Below the pieces are notes generated by a model. The model was not told the origin of the DNA. It did not search any database and worked only from the letters and a program-made list of their open reading frames with translations. Of a stretch of 64,000 nucleotides of DNA, positions 9,925 to 21,225 are shown in pieces. The position numbers and the translations under genes are program-made. The stretch's first letter is position 1. Each line of letters starts with the position of its first letter. Origin of the DNA: Alcanivoracaceae bacterium (GTDB lineage: Bacteria; Pseudomonadota; Gammaproteobacteria; Pseudomonadales; Alcanivoracaceae); NCBI GenBank assembly GCA_029213045.1, contig JARGPN010000009.1:372001-436000 (forward strand), given 5' to 3'.

Positions 9925-10335
9925 TTATGCGCTGGCAGCAGCGTCCTTCATGGTCGTCGCTAGCAGCACATAGGCTTCCGTCCACGACTGCTTTAGATCA
10001 GCCGTAAACGCATCTCCAAGCCCCTGTTCTAACGTCCACAGCAACGCGCCAGCCACCGTGTCATAGTCAGCGTCTTTTACGCCATATCCAGCGTGGCGAA
10101 TGCCCAACTGCTGGACTGCCGGCACAATCGTATCTAGGCGCGACAAGCCCTTCACTGCGACGCCAATCATCGACATTAATTTCTTTCCCTGTTCTTGCAT
10201 ATCGCCTTTGAACAGGGATTCCAAAGAAGGATCCGTAGAAAACAGCTTTTCATAAAACAGAGCTGCTGCTTGATCAGAGATTCCTTCTACCGCCACCCAA
10301 CTTTCTTGTACTGCCGCAATTTGTTCCGCCTTCAT
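9925..10335 (-). CDS. Single-domain bacterial globin
   Basis: MKAEQIAAVQESWVAV..., IRHAGYGV proximal His region; in-frame alternative start at 10347. Confidence 0.85.
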   Translation of the reverse strand: MKAEQIAAVQESWVAVEGISDQAAALFYEKLFSTDPSLESLFKGDMQEQGKKLMSMIGVAVKGLSRLDTIVPAVQQLGIRHAGYGVKDADYDTVAGALLWTLEQGLGDAFTADLKQSWTEAYVLLATTMKDAAASA

Positions 10336-10422
10336 ACACCCCTCCAAAACCTGCTAGATAGAATTGCTAGATAAACCTGACATCACAACTCGCAACTCAA
10401 CGTTGATAAGAATAAACATTCG

Positions 10423-10998
10423 TTAAAGCGGCACACGAATCACCACGCCACCCATCACATCACCCATTTCAAAATCCGTACGCGGCGAATCTTTATGCGC
10501 GTTGTGACAGGCAATACAAGGTGTCGCCACCGCGACATCTGGATATACCGCAGTGTAATACGTCACACCACCGAGATCTTCTTCGCCGTAGAAGTTTTTC
10601 CCAGGGTTATCGACGATGAATTGCAAACCTTCCTTTTCCAGCGGAGTCTTTGGCGCATTCTGTGGATTGATGGGCCAAATGCTCTGCAAAGAATAGGCAA
10701 AATCAGTGGTCATATCGGCAACGGCTTCGGCGCCAAAGCGAAACATTTGCGCAGGTAACGGCGCTCCGTTATCCAAATCTTCCCAGTATTCATGGGGCTT
10801 GATTGCATCCGCACCTTGAGGCCCTAAACGTTTAATAATGAGCTTGGTGTAATTGGTTCTATCCGCTTTCATTACAGCGAATAAAGAATCCGTATATTTC
10901 TGTGGGCTAATTCCAGTGGTGGCCGCCTGCTCATCGCCACAGGCGCTGAGAAGCATACTACTGGCTACTACTACCCCAATCATTGCTGCTTTTTTCAT
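10423..10998 (-). CDS. DUF3365 (Tll0287-like) c-type heme lipoprotein
   Basis: Signal/lipobox LLSAC; CIACHNAHKDSP heme site; IWPINPQNAP and MGGVVIRVPL typical of the family. Confidence 0.85.
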   Translation of the reverse strand: MKKAAMIGVVVASSMLLSACGDEQAATTGISPQKYTDSLFAVMKADRTNYTKLIIKRLGPQGADAIKPHEYWEDLDNGAPLPAQMFRFGAEAVADMTTDFAYSLQSIWPINPQNAPKTPLEKEGLQFIVDNPGKNFYGEEDLGGVTYYTAVYPDVAVATPCIACHNAHKDSPRTDFEMGDVMGGVVIRVPL

Positions 10999-11018
10999 GG
11001 TGCCTTCCTCCTAGAAAA

Positions 11019-12401
11019 TTAATCGTAAATACTTTCGCGCTTGCCCCGCTTTTCATCGCGTTCAACCGCCATATCGATGGATTCGATATGAACACTTGGA
11101 TCGCCGGGGAAGTTATGCTCAACCAAAACAGGGTCCGCCAACGCATCGATGGAAAACCCTAAACCGTGGCAATTCATGCACACTGAACGAATCATCTTTT
11201 CGTTCGGCCTAAGATTCGCGTTTTGATTGTGATCAACAAATATTCTTCCCTTCGAACCCGAGCCTTTTCGAGTTGCCGGCATATGGCACGTGGCACAGCT
11301 CACACCCGTTCCCGGTGCTGCCTCACCCTTTAACTCTTTACGCCAAAGCGTGTAATGAGGAGAGCGAAGATATTCATTGCTGTGCTCGTCGTTGTGACAA
11401 CCTATGCATTTGTCGACGGCGGCTTTGCGTGTATCGAAGTCATGTGATGTGTGACAAGTGTTACAAGTAAGTTCTTGATGTGATTTTTCAACATGAATAT
11501 TCAACTCACTTTGAGCGGGAGTCATGGGCGACAGACCCTGTGCTAAGCGCATACCATGCTTGCCCTGCAAAAAAGTAGACACTTCATTTTCGTGGCAACT
11601 TTCACATACCGTGTGCTCTGGCTTTTCCTTCCACGACGCTTCGTTGCCGTGACAATCCTTGCATTCAATTGCGGCGGCCGCATGCGAGCTATGCGCCCAG
11701 TTCTCGGGAATAGGCTGCTTTATAACGGGCGCACGACTTAAAATCTGTTCGGCGGTTAATCGTTCAGCTAATCCAGACTTGTCGAAGTAACGCGCACTGA
11801 AGTTGCGTAATGGTCGTACTGGCTCAGATAACGTTTTAGGCTCGTCCGCATGTGCCAGCAGAAAATCTTCGTACAGCGCTCGGTTATCATGGAAATTATG
11901 GCACCCCGCGGATTGGCAAGTATTAAACTCCATGCCCTGATGGCTCGGGCGATCCTCTCCAATGTCCGTATGACAGTGCACGCACACGTTGATGGGCTGA
12001 CTCACGCCCATGGTGGTAATGAGCTCTGGTCGATGCTCAACGTGACACGCCACACATTGACGCGCATCCAGGTGGTTGAGCAGCTCTGCGTTTCTCGGGT
12101 TAGTGAACTTGGAACGCGGATGAGAATCCTGCGCATCATCAAGTTCATCCCCATGACAGTTCATACACGCGTCTTGCAGGACGACTTCCGAATTAAATCC
12201 GTCGGCATGACACACCGTGCATTGCATCTCAATTTGATGGTGTCCATGGGTGGTCTGTCCTGGCAGAAACAAGGCTTTCTGCTCAGATATAAACAGCTCA
12301 GTTCCCAAATACACACCGCCTCCTACTGTTAATAACACCCACAGCATCCACCACTTAGCACTGCCCTTAAGCAATCCTTGGCCATCTTTAGATGCCGTCA
12401 T
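11019..12401 (-). CDS. Membrane-anchored multiheme cytochrome c (10 CxxCH plus one CX4CH)
   Basis: Counted sites: CTVCH, CMNCH, CVACH, CVHCH, CQSAGCH, CKDCH, CESCH, CNTCH, CIGCH, CATCH, CMNCH; one N-terminal TM. Confidence 0.93.
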   Translation of the reverse strand: MTASKDGQGLLKGSAKWWMLWVLLTVGGGVYLGTELFISEQKALFLPGQTTHGHHQIEMQCTVCHADGFNSEVVLQDACMNCHGDELDDAQDSHPRSKFTNPRNAELLNHLDARQCVACHVEHRPELITTMGVSQPINVCVHCHTDIGEDRPSHQGMEFNTCQSAGCHNFHDNRALYEDFLLAHADEPKTLSEPVRPLRNFSARYFDKSGLAERLTAEQILSRAPVIKQPIPENWAHSSHAAAAIECKDCHGNEASWKEKPEHTVCESCHENEVSTFLQGKHGMRLAQGLSPMTPAQSELNIHVEKSHQELTCNTCHTSHDFDTRKAAVDKCIGCHNDEHSNEYLRSPHYTLWRKELKGEAAPGTGVSCATCHMPATRKGSGSKGRIFVDHNQNANLRPNEKMIRSVCMNCHGLGFSIDALADPVLVEHNFPGDPSVHIESIDMAVERDEKRGKRESIYD

Positions 12402-12428
12402 AAATCCCCAATTCTTTTGCGATCACGT

Positions 12429-14456
12429 TCAAAAGTAGTACACAGACAAAATATGAAAACCTAACAAAACGGGTACTGGCCAAAATACGATGATGTGTAG
12501 CCACGTCATTCTCCGTCGCCAATTTGCAGGCCACCGCCCCGCAAACGTTGATTCCGCCAAAGCAAGCAATGCGACCATCCCGCCCCAGCCGAGCACCATT
12601 AAGTAGCTCGTCATTAACCAGCGATTTAAGTTTTGCCCCAAGGAAAACCCTGTGTGCCAAAGCAACAACAACACCGCACACAAGCCGACCACGCTATGCA
12701 CCATTCGCCACGAGGAAAATGCGCCTAACGAAAGAATAGGCACGCGCTTACGCAGCGAAAGAAATAGTGTTAACAGCGACGCAGACAGCAACCCGTAACC
12801 GCTAATTTGCCGCAGTAGCGAATCACGCGACCACATCTCAAACATCGATTGATCTGCGATGGCGGTTGCCACAGAAGGCATTGGCTGTAAAAAAGATAGG
12901 CCCATAAAAAGCGCAGTTAGCATTCCCACAACGCCTAGCACCTTTGCTCCGGGGACCTGCCGCTTTGCCTCGGTGGGGGCACCACAAAGGTTATCCAATA
13001 GCGCATCACAACCGCCACACACCGTTCCCGCGCCTGTTACCTTTTGGATATGATCTTTTCGCTCAGCCGCATCATGTAAAGCAAAACGCTGAAGGACCGT
13101 TGACATCTCGCCGCGTGAAATTGATTTGCACTGACAAACAATTGCCGTGCTAGGCCAATTTTCTACGTGGTGACTATTCGATTCGGCTGACGTCTTTCCG
13201 GTGAGATAAAACCGCAGAATATGCCAAGGAAAAATACGACGATTCTCTCGAAGCAATGTCATTGCTTGTGCGCGCTCAGGCCACTCGCCTATGGACACGA
13301 CGCCTACGACCCGGCCACCGCGCATCATAATTCTGCGGTAAAGCCCCTTACTTCGATTACGAAATACTGCCGTTCGATGAATTCTAAATCTAGATTCTTC
13401 TCGAAATTCGCCGGCGCTAAACACTTCTAAAGACAATACTTTTAGCCACGTAGTATCGGCAACGGGCGCATAGGCCTCGGCGTTGCCAGCGATATGCGCG
13501 GCGGCGATGCGTGCCTGATGAAGACCAGGAGCTACGAGTCCTGATATGTGATCACCAAACTGAGCACACTCACCTACGGCGTAAATATCGGCAAGAGATG
13601 TACACATATGCTCGTCAACGCGAACACCCTGAGCAATGCGAACTCCCGCCTGATCCGCGAGTTCCCGATTAGGCGAAATACCCGTCGCAAACACGACAGA
13701 ATCGCAGTGGATCTTCTCGCCATTCGCCAGTAACACATGTTCGACTCTGTCTCGCCCCCCGATTGATTTAATCGGCGTCTGCAACAAAACGCGCACACCC
13801 TCACCTTCAAGCGCATGGTGAACAATGGACGCAGCTTCTGCGTCCAGCTGCCGATTCATTAAGCGCTCGGAGTGTTGAATCAATGTGACGTCTGTATGAA
13901 ACCGACACAGTCCACGCGCGGCCTCTATACCCAAAAGCCCGCCGCCGATCACAACGGTGTGACGACTACGCGTAGTCCGCGCCATCAACGCGTGCGCGTC
14001 CGCCATATCTCTAAATCGAAAAACACCCGCTAACTGAGTGCCAGGTAAATTTGGAATATAGGCGCGACTACCGAGAGCAAGCACTAAACGGCTAAAGCAG
14101 TGCGTTTCGCCTACGTTGTCCGATACTGTTTTAGCCGATGCATCAATGGCGATAATTTCTCGACCGACATAGTGAACAACGTCGTCGTTAATTTCTTCAG
14201 GTAGGTTAGAAAGGGAATCGAACGAGGCTGAGCCGGCAAGAAAAGAAGAAAGCTTTACGCGATCATAAGGCGCCCAGCGCTCCTTACCAAAAAGGAGAAT
14301 TGGCGTACGCACACCCAAGCGCCGCAATTGTACTAAACATTGCATGCCCGACGGACCATTGCCGACAATAACAATGGGTGACTCAGAATCATTTGGAAGC
14401 TGATTCGCGACGTCTGGCTGCTGCATTGTTGCAGTGGCTACCACGCGTGTCTCCAA
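12429..14456 (-). CDS. Fusion: NirB/NasC-like FAD-NAD(P)H oxidoreductase + BFD-like [2Fe-2S] domain + C-terminal heme-b membrane domain
   Basis: VGNGPSGMQC, VIGGGLLGIEAA, FATGISPN; CQC...CGGC four-Cys BFD set; C-terminal TM helices with His pairs VHSVVGLCAVLLLLWH and LHIIVFWPVPVLLGFH. TTG start at 14456, ATG alternative at 14426. Confidence 0.85.
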   Translation of the reverse strand: METRVVATATMQQPDVANQLPNDSESPIVIVGNGPSGMQCLVQLRRLGVRTPILLFGKERWAPYDRVKLSSFLAGSASFDSLSNLPEEINDDVVHYVGREIIAIDASAKTVSDNVGETHCFSRLVLALGSRAYIPNLPGTQLAGVFRFRDMADAHALMARTTRSRHTVVIGGGLLGIEAARGLCRFHTDVTLIQHSERLMNRQLDAEAASIVHHALEGEGVRVLLQTPIKSIGGRDRVEHVLLANGEKIHCDSVVFATGISPNRELADQAGVRIAQGVRVDEHMCTSLADIYAVGECAQFGDHISGLVAPGLHQARIAAAHIAGNAEAYAPVADTTWLKVLSLEVFSAGEFREESRFRIHRTAVFRNRSKGLYRRIMMRGGRVVGVVSIGEWPERAQAMTLLRENRRIFPWHILRFYLTGKTSAESNSHHVENWPSTAIVCQCKSISRGEMSTVLQRFALHDAAERKDHIQKVTGAGTVCGGCDALLDNLCGAPTEAKRQVPGAKVLGVVGMLTALFMGLSFLQPMPSVATAIADQSMFEMWSRDSLLRQISGYGLLSASLLTLFLSLRKRVPILSLGAFSSWRMVHSVVGLCAVLLLLWHTGFSLGQNLNRWLMTSYLMVLGWGGMVALLALAESTFAGRWPANWRRRMTWLHIIVFWPVPVLLGFHILSVYYF

Positions 14457-14556: not shown

Positions 14557-15735
14557 TCAGAATGACAGTTCTGTCCACGCCCACACTTTATTTGTGTCGT
14601 CCGAGAAATCATCTGCAGAGTAATCTGCATATTTCAAGCCAACGACGTAGGGGCCAAATTTCTTCGTTGCTACGACGTCAATCTCAGACCCATAATCGGC
14701 ATCACCGTCGTCCGCACTAAAGGTGTGATATGCCGCGCCTAGGTTGACGCCTTTAACCGCTCCGCCGACAAACACTAACGTGTCCTGCAACCCTGTGATT
14801 GGCGTGACGAGAAACTTGTCAGCCCAGCCGTTAAAGGCATGCTTGGTGGCGAGCGGCGTTTGGAATCCGTACGTGCCGTCGTCAGAACCGAGCACTTCTT
14901 GTGCCACTTTCACGGTCACACCTGAAATTTTGGCACCAGCTTCGAGCAGCATGTATGAAGCATCGCTATCGCTAGGATCAAATGTTTGCTGTGCATATTC
15001 CGCGGTCAACAACATGGTGAGGCTGTCCATCGGAAATGACCCGCTATAACGCACACCGACGGTGTCACGTGAATCGTCCACGTCTTTGGTTTGCAACATG
15101 TAGCTATAGGCCGTTAACGTGCCGCCTGGTGCTTTTTTCCAGCTAGCATTGAAAAGAAAATCTTCTACGAACGCGTCAAACCCTGGCGTTATCCCGTTTA
15201 CCTTTGTCAGGTAGGCGGCGGAAACTGCAAAGCTCTCATTGCTGTAATCGAGCTTTGTCGCATCAAATGTTTGCTCATCTTGACGCCAGCCAACGTTGCC
15301 AATGAACCGCGCATTGTCATAAATAATGCGTTGGCGTCCATACGCAGCAACAAAACCTTCAAATGAATCCATACCGGTATAACGAATAAAAGATTGGTTA
15401 AGCTCAGTGACGCGCGGATCCGCAATCACTGCATATCCAGCTGTTTCCGGTCCATAATCATCTACTCCGAGCACGACGTGCGTGTCTTCAAATTCAGCGT
15501 ATGCATCGAAGCCACCTAACTTTCCAGTTTGGTACCCCAAACGCGTGCGAAGCGTAAAACCCTCCGCGTTATCATTCACGCCATCATCAACGCCTTCATA
15601 GCGCAGACGCATATTTAATTTGGGTGTGCCGCCTTTTAATGCAGTATAAAAGGCGTCATCTTCCCCCAAAGCGACATTAGCGGTAGCCAACAATGTTGGT
15701 GCAACCACGATCAGCGACAACAAGCGACCTTTCAT
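14557..15735 (-). CDS. Alginate-export-type outer-membrane porin
   Basis: Signal peptide, alternating beta-barrel pattern, LNMRLRYEGVDDG, VYGRQ-like AAYGRQRIIYDNARFIGNVGWRQDEQTFDA, terminal F. Confidence 0.8.
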   Translation of the reverse strand: MKGRLLSLIVVAPTLLATANVALGEDDAFYTALKGGTPKLNMRLRYEGVDDGVNDNAEGFTLRTRLGYQTGKLGGFDAYAEFEDTHVVLGVDDYGPETAGYAVIADPRVTELNQSFIRYTGMDSFEGFVAAYGRQRIIYDNARFIGNVGWRQDEQTFDATKLDYSNESFAVSAAYLTKVNGITPGFDAFVEDFLFNASWKKAPGGTLTAYSYMLQTKDVDDSRDTVGVRYSGSFPMDSLTMLLTAEYAQQTFDPSDSDASYMLLEAGAKISGVTVKVAQEVLGSDDGTYGFQTPLATKHAFNGWADKFLVTPITGLQDTLVFVGGAVKGVNLGAAYHTFSADDGDADYGSEIDVVATKKFGPYVVGLKYADYSADDFSDDTNKVWAWTELSF

Positions 15736-15820: not shown

Positions 15821-16669
15821 CTATCCGTGTTTTCTTTCTTCCTTCTTATTCTTTTTTTTACTGTCAATCGGCAGTGAAATTGGCTGAACCTTTCGCTGTT
15901 TTTCATAAAGAAATTGCAAGACTCGCTGACGACAGCGGTTGAAAAGTGGATCATCTGCTAATGCAAGACGGTCACGCGGCCGGGGCAGCGGTACGTCAAG
16001 CACTTCTCCGATGGTTGCAGACGGGCCGTTAGTCATCATGACAATCCGATCCGACAACAACACTGCTTCGTCGACATCGTGCGTAATCATGATGACCGTA
16101 TTGCCCAGTTTGCGATGGATATCCATCAGAGAGTCTTGCAAGTGGGCGCGTGTCAGCGCGTCCAGCGCACCAAAAGGTTCGTCCATTAACAACACGCGTG
16201 GCTGCATTGCTAATGCTCTTGCAATACCTACACGTTGCTTCATACCGCCGGAGATTTCGTCCGGGCGCTTATCCATAGCGTGACTCATGTGCACCAACGA
16301 TAAGTTGTGCTCAATCCATTCACGCATTTCAGCTTTACTTTTTTTGCCTTTAAATACTCGCTTGACGGCAAGCTCAACATTTTCATAGGCCGTGAGCCAC
16401 GGCAGCAGAGAATGGTTTTGAAATACGACTGCCCTCTCAGGGCCCGGCTCATAAACTTCTTTTCCGTCGAGAATTGCGCCGCCTGATGTCGCCTGAAGAA
16501 GGCCAGCAACGATATTGAGAACTGTCGATTTCCCGCACCCTGAGTGCCCAATCAACGAAATAAATTCTCCCTCTCCGATCTTCAAATCCACTTCTTTAAG
16601 CGCCTCGAAACTGCCGCGAGGTGTTTCAAATGAGATGCCGACTTTGCTCAGTTCTAGAATCATTTTCAT
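15821..16669 (-). CDS. nrtD: Nitrate/nitrite ABC transporter ATP-binding protein
   Basis: Walker A GHSGCGKST, ISGGMKQRVGIARAL, MDEPFGALDALTR; adjacent to NrtA and NrtB. Confidence 0.88.
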   Translation of the reverse strand: MKMILELSKVGISFETPRGSFEALKEVDLKIGEGEFISLIGHSGCGKSTVLNIVAGLLQATSGGAILDGKEVYEPGPERAVVFQNHSLLPWLTAYENVELAVKRVFKGKKSKAEMREWIEHNLSLVHMSHAMDKRPDEISGGMKQRVGIARALAMQPRVLLMDEPFGALDALTRAHLQDSLMDIHRKLGNTVIMITHDVDEAVLLSDRIVMMTNGPSATIGEVLDVPLPRPRDRLALADDPLFNRCRQRVLQFLYEKQRKVQPISLPIDSKKKNKKEERKHG

Positions 16670-16697: not shown

Positions 16698-17699
16698 TTA
16701 TCGCTGGGCGGATTGCTTGTCCCACACCAACCAACGTTGCAAGCCGAGCATGGTTCTATCTAAAAGAAAGCCAATCAGACCAATGGTTAACACTGCCACC
16801 ATGATGCGGCCCAAAGACTGGGAACTACCGTTCTGAAATTCGTCCCAGACAAATTTTCCAAGCCCAGGGTTTTGCGCCAGCATTTCCGCCGCGATGAGCA
16901 CCATCCATGCAATACCTAGAGATAAACGTAATCCGGTAAAAATCATCGGCAACGCAGAAGGAATAACAATTTTCCGGACGTGTTCGGCCCAACCTAAACG
17001 TAGAACGCGCGACACATTGACCAGATCTTGGCTGACTGACGTCACACCGACAGAAGTGTTAATGAGTGTCGGCCAAAGACTGCACAGGGAAACGGTAATC
17101 ATCGAAACAACGAATGATTTCGCCACCATCGGATCGTCGCTTACGTACACCGCGCTCACCACCATTGTGACAAGAGGCAGCCACGCCAGTGGCGAAACAG
17201 GCTTAAAGAGTTGGATCAAAGGATTGGTCGCTGCGTGCACGCTAGTGCTTAGACCAATCACAATACCAAGAGGTATGGCGATGACTGAAGCAACCAGAAA
17301 CCCACACATCACAGTAATCAAACTAGTAATAATTTGATCAAAAAACGTGGGGCTGCCGGTATAATCACGGCGCACAGGAACATAGTCAGGATCCGCGGCA
17401 ACTCGGTCTTCGATGCGAACTTCCTGGCGCTGATAGAATGCCTTTTCTTTAGCTCGACCCGCTTTATGTTCCGCATACAGGGTGCTGACTTGTTGCGACA
17501 CATCGCTCGGCCCAGGAAATTTTCCTAAGGACGTATCAATACGTTGCGCAGCGATGTGCCAAAGAAAAATAAATGTCAGCAATCCCAACACTGGCAAGCC
17601 AATCTGCCTTAATAGCTGCGCAACTTGAGCTCGACTTGCTTCGCCTTTTACGACGCTCAGATAAGGCTCTATCCAGCCCGGCATTGTGATTGATGACAT
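16698..17699 (-). CDS. nrtB: Nitrate ABC transporter permease
   Basis: BPD permease EAA-like region; family context SVGVTSVSQDLVNVSRVLRLG. Confidence 0.88.
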   Translation of the reverse strand: MSSITMPGWIEPYLSVVKGEASRAQVAQLLRQIGLPVLGLLTFIFLWHIAAQRIDTSLGKFPGPSDVSQQVSTLYAEHKAGRAKEKAFYQRQEVRIEDRVAADPDYVPVRRDYTGSPTFFDQIITSLITVMCGFLVASVIAIPLGIVIGLSTSVHAATNPLIQLFKPVSPLAWLPLVTMVVSAVYVSDDPMVAKSFVVSMITVSLCSLWPTLINTSVGVTSVSQDLVNVSRVLRLGWAEHVRKIVIPSALPMIFTGLRLSLGIAWMVLIAAEMLAQNPGLGKFVWDEFQNGSSQSLGRIMVAVLTIGLIGFLLDRTMLGLQRWLVWDKQSAQR

Positions 17700-17751: not shown

Positions 17752-19128
17752 TTACATTTTGTCTTTCGCTTTCAAGCCGATTTTTAAGCTTTCTAGGTAG
17801 GCATTGGGGGTGCGTCCGTTGTATTCGACGCCGTCAATAAACTCTTTCTGAGGTGGTCGAAAGCCGTCTTCCGACGCGAAGTCTGGAAAGTCCGCAGCTT
17901 TTACTTTTCCTTCGGCAATAAGTTCTTTTGCAGCAATAGCGTAGATATCTGGGCGATAGACTTTCTTAGCCGTTTCGGTGTACCAGCTATCAGGCTTAGT
18001 ATCGGAAATTTGCCCCCAACGACGCATCTGTGTGAGATACCAAATTGCGTCCGAGTAATAAGGGAACGTTGCGTTGTAGCGGAAGAAAACGTTGAAATCA
18101 GGGACTGAGCGCTTATCGCCTTTTTCGTACTCAAACGTGCCCGTCATACTGTTAGCGATAACTTCAGCATCGGCGCCGACATAGTTAGGCTTGGCAAGAA
18201 TTTTTACCGCTTCAGGTCGATTCGCATTGTTATTTTCGTCTAACCACTGCGCTGCGCGAATCATCGCCTTAACCACGCGAATATGCGTATTGGGATATTT
18301 ATCCGCCCACTCTTTGCTTACACCAAACACTTTTTCAGGGTTGTTTTTCCAGATTTCATAATCGGTAATGACTGGAACACCAATACCTTTGAAAACCGCC
18401 TGCTGATTCCATGGTTCGCCCACGCAATAGCCATAAATCGTTCCGGCTTCCATGGTCGCGGGCATTTGCGGTGGCGGCGTAACAGAGAGCAACACATCTG
18501 CTTTTAACTGTCCTGAGGTGTCACCCTTAGCCGGCGCGTAGTAGCCAGGATGAATGCCTCCGGCGGCTAGCCAATAACGTAATTCATAGTTGTGTGTTGA
18601 AACAGGAAAGACCATACCGAGGTTAAATGGCTTACCTTCCGCACGGTATTTTTCAACAACAGGCTTTAACGCATCCGCCTTGATAGGATGAACAGGCTTG
18701 CCGTCTTTCATCGGCACATGCTTCTTCATTTCGTCCCACACTGCGTTGGAAACAGTAATACCGTTACCGTTAAGGTCCATGCTAAATGCGGTAATAATGT
18801 GTGCTTGTGTTCCGAAGCCGATGGTCGCACCCAATGGCTGCCCTGCTAACATATGTGCGCCATCCAATTGTCCGTCGATCACGCGATCTAGCAAAACCTT
18901 CCAATTCGCCTGCGCTTCCAAGGTCACATAGAGGCCTTCGTCTTCGAAAAATCCTTTTTCATAGGCGATCGCCAACGGCGCCATATCGGTGAGCTTAATA
19001 AAGCCAAATTTCAGCTCTTCTTTCTCCGGATAGCCAACCTCCGCCACCGATAAAGAAGTGATTGTTAGTGCGCAAATTGCAGCACAGGCTTTTGCTGCGG
19101 TGCGTAACTTTCCCCAAGACATTCGCAT
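17752..19128 (-). CDS. nrtA: Nitrate ABC transporter substrate-binding protein (CmpA/NrtA)
   Basis: [28 protein letters not shown]...[21 protein letters not shown]; start reassigned from 19182 to ATG 19128 with upstream GGAG. Confidence 0.9.
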
Positions 19129-19182
19129 AACTTTTCTCCGTTTACCGCGCTTAGCGGGCTTATAGCCATTTTCTTTAGGCAT

Positions 19183-19237
19183 AAAAAAAGGCGCTCAGGA
19201 GGACAGACAGTTAGCTATCTGTTTCCCGAGCGCCTTT
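19183..19237 (-). terminator. Leader terminator upstream of nrtA
   Basis: RNA AAAGGCGCUC...GAGCGCCUUUUUUU; 5' arm overlaps hexaloop hairpin P2. Confidence 0.85.
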
Positions 19238-19272
19238 GCTCGATTCAAATTGTTGCGGCCGCCGTTGGCCGC
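19227..19272 (-). promoter_or_regulatory. ANTAR-target antiterminator RNA (two hexaloop hairpins)
   Basis: P1 GCGGCC-AACGGC-GGCCGC (19272-19255); 12-nt linker; P2 CGAGC-AAAGGC-GCUCG (19242-19227); both loops have A1 and G4. Confidence 0.88.
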
Positions 19273-19449: not shown

Positions 19450-20622
19450 TCAGGGCACAAATATATTTCCGTCAACGAATAGATCAGGTCCCATGCTCAC
19501 TGCGTCTGGTTGACCCGGAGCCTCCCAGTTATCTGCATGCAAACCTTCTTGCTTCACGTCATCTACTGGCAAACTGGTAATGCCTCGCATGGCTGATCGG
19601 TATAAATCCGTGCGATAACACTGCGCAACCATTGGGCTTAAATTATCACCCTTCAACTGACCCCAGCGCTGCATTTGCCCAAGCAAGAATTCCGCGTGGG
19701 ATCGCCACGGGAAATTGGCTTGGTAACGGGAAAACACATGGAAGTGATGTGCGGGGAAAGGTGCGCCAGTTAGCCCACCCGCCAAACGACCACTTAAAGA
19801 AACGGTCAGCAATTCAGGTGGCAAATCAATATAGTGGCCATCGGTAAGCATGGTCACCGCTTCACTTAGATTTTCATCAACAAATTTACCCGCGCGGTAT
19901 AATGCGCGTAACAATCCGCTCATCGTTTGCGGATGTTGCACCACCCAATCCTGACTCATGCCGAGCACTTTTTCCGGCGCGTTTTGCCAGATGTCATAAC
20001 CGGAAACAATACAATGCCCCACGCCAGTGAGCACCGCCACACTGTTCCAAGGCTCTCCGACGCAGAATCCGTCGATATGCCCTAAACGAAGGTGATCCAC
20101 CATTTGGGATGGAGGAAGCACGACGATCTTAACGTCTTTATCCGGATCAATGCCGCCGACAGCAAGCCAGTAGCGCAAAAGATACGCATGGCATGAGAAC
20201 GGAAAAACAATTGCCAAGACGAGCGGAGGCTGAGAATTTCTACGGCGCGATTCAATCACAACTTTTAATGCGCGTACCGAACCGAGTGGTGTATTTTCTT
20301 CCGCCAGCGCAGCAAGACCACGATATAAACTCGGCGATACTGTAATCGCGTTACCGTTAAGCCCTAACGACCAAGCCGATACCATTTGCTTGCGAATTCC
20401 GCACAACCCCAGCGACGCGGACAACAGCATCGGGGCCAACATTTGCGCACCGTCGAGCTGCCCGACTAATACTCGGTCTCGCAACGTGGCCCAAGACGTT
20501 TCACGCTGTAGATCAACCTCTAAACCTTCGTCGGCGAAGTAACCTAATTCCCGGGCGGCGACTAAAGGCAAACTGTCAGTAAGCGGGACAAATCCTAAGC
20601 GCACGTACTTCTTTTCTGGCAT
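19450..20622 (-). CDS. nasS: NasS-like nitrate sensor (NrtA-family without signal peptide)
   Basis: LGFVPLTDSLPLVAARELGYFADEGLEVDL...; homologous to NrtA above but cytosolic; 3 nt from nasT. Confidence 0.85.
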   Translation of the reverse strand: MPEKKYVRLGFVPLTDSLPLVAARELGYFADEGLEVDLQRETSWATLRDRVLVGQLDGAQMLAPMLLSASLGLCGIRKQMVSAWSLGLNGNAITVSPSLYRGLAALAEENTPLGSVRALKVVIESRRRNSQPPLVLAIVFPFSCHAYLLRYWLAVGGIDPDKDVKIVVLPPSQMVDHLRLGHIDGFCVGEPWNSVAVLTGVGHCIVSGYDIWQNAPEKVLGMSQDWVVQHPQTMSGLLRALYRAGKFVDENLSEAVTMLTDGHYIDLPPELLTVSLSGRLAGGLTGAPFPAHHFHVFSRYQANFPWRSHAEFLLGQMQRWGQLKGDNLSPMVAQCYRTDLYRSAMRGITSLPVDDVKQEGLHADNWEAPGQPDAVSMGPDLFVDGNIFVP

Positions 20623-20625
20623 CCG

Positions 20626-21225
20626 TTAGCCCTCCAGTAAATCGGCAAAGGCCAACAAATTACGAGACACTTCAACGAGGCGCTGACCACGATCCATCGC
20701 CATCCGACGTAACTGTTGATAGGCCTGCTCTTCATTGAGCTGCTTGCGCGCCATGAGTAACCCTTTTGCTTTTTCGATCACACGTCGATCCGCCAGCTGC
20801 CCACGGGTTTTTTCTAGTTCATCACGCAAGGCCTGATATTCACGAAAGCGCGTGATCGCGACGTTCACAATGGCTTTTACGCGAGCGGGCTGAAGACCGT
20901 CGACGATATAAGCACTAACACCCGCGTGAATCGCGCGGGCCATAATTTCTTCATCTTCACTGCCAGCAAACATCACCACGGGACGCGGGAGATCGCGTTG
21001 CAACAACGCCATGTTTTCCAAGGTGTCTCGGTCTGGCGAATCCATATCGACGATAATAACGTCGGGATTCAACTGGCTGACTTGCGCCAACAGGCCCGCC
21101 GCGCTCGGTAAACGCGCGACGACGAGGTACCCGTGATCGGTAAGTGCCCGCTCTAAAATAGCCGCACGGGCGGGCTGGTCATCGACCAACATCACGCGCG
21201 GAACTTGTTGTTCTGGTTGTTGCAC
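20626..21225 (-). CDS. nasT: NasT-like response regulator with ANTAR RNA-binding domain
   Basis: Receiver VMLVDDQPARAA, VDMDSPDRD; ANTAR RRVIEKAKGLLMARKQLNEEQAYQQLRRMAMDRG. Confidence 0.92.
   Translation of the reverse strand: MQQPEQQVPRVMLVDDQPARAAILERALTDHGYLVVARLPSAAGLLAQVSQLNPDVIIVDMDSPDRDTLENMALLQRDLPRPVVMFAGSEDEEIMARAIHAGVSAYIVDGLQPARVKAIVNVAITRFREYQALRDELEKTRGQLADRRVIEKAKGLLMARKQLNEEQAYQQLRRMAMDRGQRLVEVSRNLLAFADLLEG

Follow-up and report, generated by a model that had tools for sequence, protein, structure and literature searches.

Known multiheme conduits are generally fed by quinol and respiratory: in CymA/MtrCAB and CbcL, inner-membrane b/c-heme proteins pass electrons to periplasmic multiheme cytochromes. 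NADPH oxidases and ferric reductases move electrons outward from cytosolic NAD(P)H, through flavin adenine dinucleotide (FAD) and two stacked b hemes, and assimilatory nitrate reduction is cytosolic. In Bradyrhizobium, detoxification of nitric oxide (NO) by a globin and a flavoprotein has been shown inside a NasT-controlled nitrate operon, that of the NarK-Bjgb-Flp-NasC system (PMC4724949). We describe here a gene set carried by a stretch of 64,000 nucleotides (nt) from an Alcanivoracaceae bacterium (assembly GCA_029213045.1, contig JARGPN010000009.1, positions 372,001-436,000), hereafter the window, whose numbering is used for all positions. The set comprises FUS, a flavin/BFD/heme-b fusion; MHC11, an 11-heme cytochrome c; and a DUF3365 protein. 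We call these three genes the unit, and read them, with slightly better than even confidence, as a nitrate-induced electron conduit from NAD(P)H to the periplasm, probably for nitrite and NO by-products. The coding regions and predicted domains of the unit are as follows:

12429-14456, minus strand: FUS, a NirB-like FAD/NAD(P)H reductase with a BFD [2Fe-2S] domain and a five-helix diheme-b membrane domain (675 amino acids)
13254-14375, minus strand: FUS FAD/NAD(P) and rubredoxin-reductase C-terminal domains, residues 28-401 (PF07992, E 3e-58; PF18267, E 7e-9)
12996-13142, minus strand: FUS BFD-like [2Fe-2S] domain, residues 439-487 (C441, C443, C480, C483)
12435-12947, minus strand: FUS membrane domain, five helices, putative b-heme ligands H587/H601/H654/H668 (model and alignment)
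11019-12401, minus strand: MHC11, an N-terminally anchored, periplasmic 11-heme cytochrome c (460 amino acids; ten CXXCH and one CX4CH)
10423-10998, minus strand: Tll0287-like (DUF3365, sCache_heme) lipoprotein with one c heme (PF11845)

The two larger genes of the unit travel together. In a survey of 274 gammaproteobacterial genomes, where a strong match was defined as E < 1e-30 to the FUS membrane domain or to MHC11, both were found in the same 22 genomes, adjacent apart from contig breaks, and neither was found alone as a strong match in the other 252 genomes (Fisher test, 6e-33, kinship between genomes being ignored). A scan of 85,462 species genomes for MHC11 yielded 390 confirmed relatives, and the locus counts given below concern the best 80 of these (L046-L125). 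These 80 loci are distributed over about nine phyla: Pseudomonadota, Verrucomicrobiota, Lentisphaerota, Planctomycetota, Poribacteria, Nitrospirota, Acidobacteriota, Myxococcota and Dadabacteria. In all 79 testable loci (the 80th contig starts inside MHC11), FUS is the gene immediately upstream of MHC11 and has the same orientation; a DUF3365 gene is present in 79 of 80. FUS-MHC11-DUF3365 is a discrete conserved unit, in which FUS and MHC11 are the two obligate parts, always found together across these phyla. The initial annotation of this DNA, which proposed the conduit, had named co-conservation as a test of its own idea; we find it near-perfect (22/22 genomes, 79/79 loci). One might still suspect that unrelated redox genes have come to lie side by side at a nitrate locus by chance, the more so as about half of the loci have no nearby nitrate gene. 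Perfect co-occurrence, a fixed order across phyla and shared leaders (see below) reduce the probability of this explanation to almost nothing, and for the three-gene core it is ruled out by the co-occurrence and adjacency results.

FUS combines a known flavoprotein type with a membrane domain of its own kind. Residues 28-316 match Pyr_redox_2 (E 3e-58) and residues 336-401 match Rubredoxin_C; a Fer2_BFD match at residues 439-487 (E 5e-5) lies slightly below the Pfam cut-off, and its cysteines C441, C443, C480 and C483 are invariant in 13/13 FUS sequences. The NirB model TIGR02374 spans residues 28-493 (E 5.6e-101), with 339 bits against a NirB cut-off of 578. The likeness to NirB concerns the FAD/NAD/BFD half, whereas PF01077, the NIR_SIR siroheme/4Fe-4S half, was absent from FUS in the profile search, the C-terminus being occupied instead by the diheme-b membrane domain. 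FUS may thus be pictured as a NirB whose siroheme half was exchanged for a transmembrane diheme wire. In the AlphaFold model, this C-terminus forms five long helices (predicted local distance difference test score, 92). Histidines H587, H601 and H654 are invariant in 74/74 FUS sequences, and H668 is found in 73 of them. Loops 2-3 and 4-5 contain 5.5 and 3.9 lysines plus arginines, compared to 1.1 and 0.5 in the opposite loops; under the positive-inside rule, this bias suggests that the FAD/[2Fe-2S] part is cytosolic and that the heme pairs lie on opposite membrane faces. H587/H654 would hold a cytosol-side b heme, and H601/H668 a periplasm-side b heme.

Histidine pairs 13-14 residues apart also hold the b hemes of NADPH oxidases and ferric reductases. 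FUS differs from these enzymes, however, in having a NirB-type rather than a ferredoxin-NADP reductase (FNR)-type flavoprotein, a [2Fe-2S] domain and a dedicated multiheme acceptor, and no Pfam or PDB match links its membrane domain to them. Up to E 1, this domain matched no Pfam family, PF01794 and PF01292 included, except for a chance Presenilin match, and no PDB fold scored better than E 0.28. Long open reading frames (ORFs) at L069, L071, L075, L110 and L123, candidates for a single-protein FUS-MHC11 fusion, were rejected as upstream frame extensions.

In genome G324, a second copy of the unit (L136:4986-8344) carries a fusion of a GPP34 (Golgi phosphoprotein 3-like) domain to a FUS-type membrane domain, after which come MHC11 and DUF3365. 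To judge from the domains of this copy, the cytosolic end of the unit is exchangeable.

A single membrane helix at the N-terminus anchors MHC11, whose 11 sites for c-heme attachment are all invariant across 75 aligned sequences. Ten further histidines are invariant, and an eleventh (H320) is conserved in 74/75. Eleven hemes and 11 further conserved histidines would allow every heme to be bis-His coordinated, as is characteristic of electron wires, and favour reading MHC11 as a wire rather than an enzyme. The initial annotation had suggested that MHC11 may itself be the terminal reductase. In that case, it would be a divergent member of the octaheme nitrite reductase (ONR)/NrfA/hydroxylamine oxidoreductase (HAO) group, reducing nitrite, NO or hydroxylamine in the periplasm with electrons from NAD(P)H delivered by FUS. 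Its C-terminal half indeed gives partial profile matches to the eight-heme nitrite reductase (E 2e-10) and NrfA (E 1e-9), resembling these enzymes in its heme motifs, and HAO is the top PDB match of the model (E 0.011, TM-score 0.28). However, MHC11 differs from this group by its 11 hemes, its membrane anchor and its further conserved histidine for each heme, which leaves no obvious five-coordinate heme. CXXCK occurs in none of the 75 sequences, and the site weakly aligned to the ONR CXXCK is a CXXCH. The absence of CXXCK and the one conserved histidine per heme disfavour a terminal reductase, and we regard this role as unlikely. A wider proposal would give many bacteria an unrecognised periplasmic arm of nitrate assimilation: an NAD(P)H reductase descended from NirB would feed a diheme membrane domain of a new type, and the 11-heme cytochrome receiving the electrons would itself be the reductase of nitrite, NO or hydroxylamine. 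We offer this as a doubtful possibility.

The gene content of the genome also bears on this question. The initial annotation observed that nasA, nirBD and nap are missing, and took the terminal reductase of nitrate use to be unknown. The absence holds for the window but not for the genome (3.17 Mb, 99.9% complete), in which nasA, a nasB-type flavoprotein gene and nirB lie together with a narK-type transporter gene, about 340 kb from the window. NrfA was sought in the same genome, where the sole PF02335 match is MHC11 itself; its molybdopterin oxidoreductases number only two, NasA and a 745-amino-acid protein with no further annotation. NIR_SIR genes of NirB or NirA size are present in most unit-bearing genomes, leaving no reductase gap for MHC11 to fill, and MHC11 was rejected as the missing nitrite reductase on this ground. 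Because nasA-nasB-nirB is present elsewhere and genes of NirB/NirA size are common in unit-bearing genomes, the unit is not the missing assimilatory reductase. Among the observations that the initial annotation listed as damaging to its proposal was a nas/nir system elsewhere that explains nitrate growth, combined with mutants lacking a phenotype; of this pair, the genome supplies the nas/nir system alone.

A second type of assimilatory nitrate reductase was noticed at L126:8449-12603, with similar genes in L128-L134. It consists of a NasA-like protein of about 740 amino acids and a partner of about 640 amino acids outside assigned families, and this pair often occurs in unit-bearing genomes.

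The third gene of the unit (10998-10423) encodes a Tll0287-like protein (PF11845, formerly DUF3365; E 2.2e-17) with a lipobox cysteine, C20, and a CXXCH at residues 161-165 that is invariant in 14/14 sequences. There is no conserved cysteine beyond lipobox and heme motif, and a weak alignment to 5b82 leaves the ligand site uncovered. The stand-alone Tll0287/DUF3365 sCache_heme proteins described previously are likewise periplasmic PF11845 proteins with a conserved CXXCH; here, however, the protein is a fixed third member of a unit and carries a lipobox, a genomic role not covered in that description (PMC12889525). As stand-alone Tll0287 proteins act as redox proteins and not as NO sensors (PMC12889525), an end-of-chain carrier would suit the DUF3365 protein. 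In about 36 of the 80 loci, DUF3365 is followed by a gene for a monoheme class I cytochrome c lipoprotein (PF13442).

Downstream of DUF3365 in the window, the gene at 10347-9925 matches the Globin profile (E 7e-15) and probably serves cytosolic NO detoxification, by analogy with the Bradyrhizobium globin (PMC4724949). A globin or truncated haemoglobin is present in 59/80 loci. The globin, which the initial annotation counted as part of the conduit, is present here but is otherwise an optional accessory; in some loci, its place is taken by a truncated haemoglobin that comes with a separate reductase. Such replacement is seen in L087, L094, L098, L105, L108, L118 and L122, where the truncated haemoglobin is accompanied by a ferredoxin-reductase-type (2Fe-2S + FNR) protein, possibly forming a two-gene NO dioxygenase. 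Since the truncated haemoglobin usually brings its own partner of this type, the obligate partner of FUS is MHC11 and not the globin.

This distinction matters for another explanation, in which FUS is chiefly a membrane-held reductase for cytosolic partners such as globin or NasA, the hemes being secondary. Flp serves both NasC and Bjgb in this way in Bradyrhizobium (PMC4724949), and NasB is a relative of the N-terminal part of FUS (30-37% identity). Yet MHC11 is obligatory (22/22, 79/79) when globin is optional (59/80), globins may come with a reductase of their own (truncated haemoglobin + FNR_fer2), and the nasA of this genome is already paired with its own nasB. We consider this explanation very improbable.

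The link to nitrate comes from the operon and from its leader. Around the unit, the following features were identified, mainly by profile matches:

20626-21225, minus strand: nasT (ANTAR; PF03861, PF00072)
19450-20622, minus strand: nasS (PF13379)
19183-19272, minus strand: predicted NasT/ANTAR-type attenuator before nrtA (hairpin and terminator scan)
17752-19182, minus strand: nrtA, nitrate ATP-binding cassette (ABC) transporter (profile match; listed start abuts the attenuator)
16698-17699, minus strand: nrtB, nitrate ABC transporter (profile match)
15821-16669, minus strand: nrtD, nitrate ABC transporter (profile match)
14557-15735, minus strand: outer-membrane porin, PF13372 type, 392 amino acids (profile match)
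9925-10347, minus strand: single-domain globin (Globin profile)

The genes follow each other on one strand in the order nrtA-nrtB-nrtD-porin, then FUS, MHC11, the DUF3365 gene and globin. The last four were found exactly where the initial annotation had placed them, with intergenic gaps of 27, 20 and 75 nt. The porin, by contrast, does not belong to the unit as previously supposed: it goes with the nrt genes and is mostly seen where these occur.

As an Rfam scan returned two tRNAs only, we examined the nasS-nrtA leader using a custom scan with controls. The leader folds strongly (z -5.8) and ends in an intrinsic terminator (19234-19190) with a run of seven T at 19189-19183. It contains a hairpin P1, GCGGCC[AACGGC]GGCCGC (19272-19255), and a hairpin P2, CGAGC[AAAGGC]GCUCG (19243-19226), which overlaps the terminator stem. 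An ANTAR antiterminator has a pair of hairpins, each with a hexaloop carrying A1 and G4, and its second hairpin and the terminator are mutually exclusive (PMC3369931); by its predicted hairpins, the window leader fits this definition of an ANTAR (NasT/NasR) target. Nitrate or nitrite frees NasT from NasS, and NasT binds the nasA leader RNA (PMC3795266). Antitermination by NasT at the nrtA leader would switch on transporter, porin, conduit and globin jointly in the window. From nrtA to the globin gene, we found no strong terminator on the minus strand, so that read-through is predicted to reach the conduit.

We applied a strict leader test, requiring a hairpin with an AANGNN hexaloop followed by a strong terminator, to several sets of sequences. 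The test was positive upstream of FUS in 13/54 loci and upstream of nrtA in 11/19, against 0/324 for other genes and 0/540 for shuffled sequences. Several of the positive FUS loci, for instance in Marinobacter (L071, L077) and Cellvibrionaceae (L105), have no adjoining nitrate transporter; the nitrate link does not, therefore, come from neighbourhood alone. The NasS/NasT control put forward initially is thus recovered as an ANTAR-type attenuator before nrtA here and before FUS itself in 13 other loci. Nitrate genes are also frequent neighbours: nrtA lies within 10 kb in 28/80 loci and nasT in 22/80, compared with the roughly half a percent of loci expected from random placement in a 4-Mb genome. 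This adjacency is not a single inherited arrangement, since 11 changes are needed on the MHC11 tree. Finally, NasA (match of E 1e-100 or better) is found in 42/49 unit-bearing genomes versus 68/131 other genomes of the order, kinship again being ignored. The leaders and gene associations indicate that the nitrate link of the unit is real.

Domains, ligands, topology signature, co-conservation, operon order and leader are all read from sequence, and the case they make for a conduit anatomy of FUS-MHC11 is strong. As anticipated in the initial annotation, the predicted FAD/NAD, [2Fe-2S], b-heme bis-His and c-heme residues are invariant, and the b hemes are placed on opposite membrane faces. We infer the direction of electrons, the redox partners and the terminal acceptor. 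NAD(P)H would reduce the FAD of the NirB-like domain of FUS, as homology suggests, and FAD would reduce the BFD [2Fe-2S] cluster. From there, electrons may pass to the cytosol-side b heme (H587/H654), to the periplasm-side b heme (H601/H668), and through the 11 bis-His hemes of membrane-anchored MHC11 to the DUF3365 heme lipoprotein. Where a locus encodes a class I cytochrome c lipoprotein, this protein would receive them too. An outward direction is expected because the donor would be NAD(P)H and the architecture is one-way. Like CymA/MtrCAB and CbcL, the unit would pair an inner-membrane heme protein with a periplasmic multiheme cytochrome; unlike them, its predicted donor is NAD(P)H and it is tied to assimilation. 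The window cluster has no MtrB-type large porin, outer-membrane cytochrome or second multiheme gene, but only the 392-amino-acid PF13372-type porin.

Such a conduit would most likely serve to reduce, or to poise, nitrogen by-products that arise in the periplasm from nitrate uptake and reduction, namely leaked nitrite and NO. Nitrate assimilation yields NO (PMC4724949), and we favour nitrite/NO handling because globins recur at unit loci: the globin would clear cytosolic NO, with the unit as its periplasmic counterpart. Alternatively, the unit may act as an overflow for reducing power, or as another kind of NAD(P)H dehydrogenase, passing electrons to the periplasmic cytochrome c pool and on to an oxidase or some other acceptor, for example metals, and relieving NAD(P)H pressure with no nitrogen chemistry of its own. 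The PF13442 lipoproteins after DUF3365 would fit this idea, as would related b/c-heme systems without nearby nitrate genes (L135 and L138, described below). However, nitrate assimilation already uses much reductant, and NasT-type leaders, NasA co-occurrence and globins indicate nitrogen oxyanion conditions specifically, so that we judge an overflow function unlikely.

Several observations weigh against a nitrate-induced, NAD(P)H-driven conduit for nitrite and NO. The class I cytochrome c of many loci would also fit delivery to the respiratory c pool. The leader motif is missing from 41/54 testable FUS leaders, and in about half of the loci the nearest 10 kb contain no nitrate gene. Where an acidic residue usually follows the NAD Rossmann motif, FUS mostly has Q or H, making the nucleotide preference ambiguous, and the G324 copy, where GPP34 replaces the FAD/[2Fe-2S] part, implies that some variants have a donor other than NAD(P)H. 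Lastly, the N-terminal half of the MHC11 model is poor.

The Bradyrhizobium system offers the nearest regulatory parallel: in gene content and leader, it shares with the window a NasS-NasT nitrate operon in which a single-domain haemoglobin accompanies a flavoprotein using NAD(P)H. That system comprises Flp, globin, transporter and NasC only, and its electrons stay in the cytosol; it is described without a b-heme membrane domain, multiheme cytochrome or Tll0287 protein (PMC4724949). Our literature search, which covered open-licence papers and left subscription journals largely outside its scope, found no paper describing the FUS-MHC11-DUF3365 gene set. FUS-MHC11 appears to draw directly on NAD(P)H and to be co-controlled with nitrate uptake by an RNA switch. 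If the proposed function is true, assimilatory nitrate reduction has a conserved periplasmic electron branch, most plausibly for nitrite and NO.

Some start codons deserve a comment. For FUS, GTG at 14444, preceded by GGAG, is a likelier start than TTG at 14456, and for the globin, ATG at 10335 after GGAGG is the likelier start. The listed nrtA start, ATG at 19182, directly adjoins the T-run of the attenuator (window 19182-19128); the true start is likelier to be further downstream, ahead of the signal peptide. Between porin and FUS (14548-14515), we observed an inverted repeat, GGTGCAC...GTGCACC, lacking a T-run, possibly a hairpin for mRNA processing or stabilisation.

Degraded and divergent relatives of the unit were also encountered. 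At L134:5809-6779, a decayed copy, comprising a FUS fragment, an MHC11 remnant and a globin, adjoins an intact nrtABD-nirBD-nasA cluster, suggesting that this lineage lost the unit. The genome under study harbors a second, distantly related conduit (L135:1014-6002; contig C3, about 79.0-84.0 kb). It includes a protein that combines a TrxR-like FAD part, two cyclic nucleotide monophosphate (cNMP)-binding domains and a 4Fe-4S part, a 296-amino-acid b-heme membrane protein matching the FUS membrane model, and a protein with an FHA domain and a multiheme cytochrome c. Weak matches of the same size recur in dozens of gammaproteobacterial genomes. A minimal relative, at L138:3496-5577, is a single operon encoding a stand-alone b-heme membrane protein, a DUF3365 protein and a multiheme cytochrome of small size, with no NAD(P)H domain.

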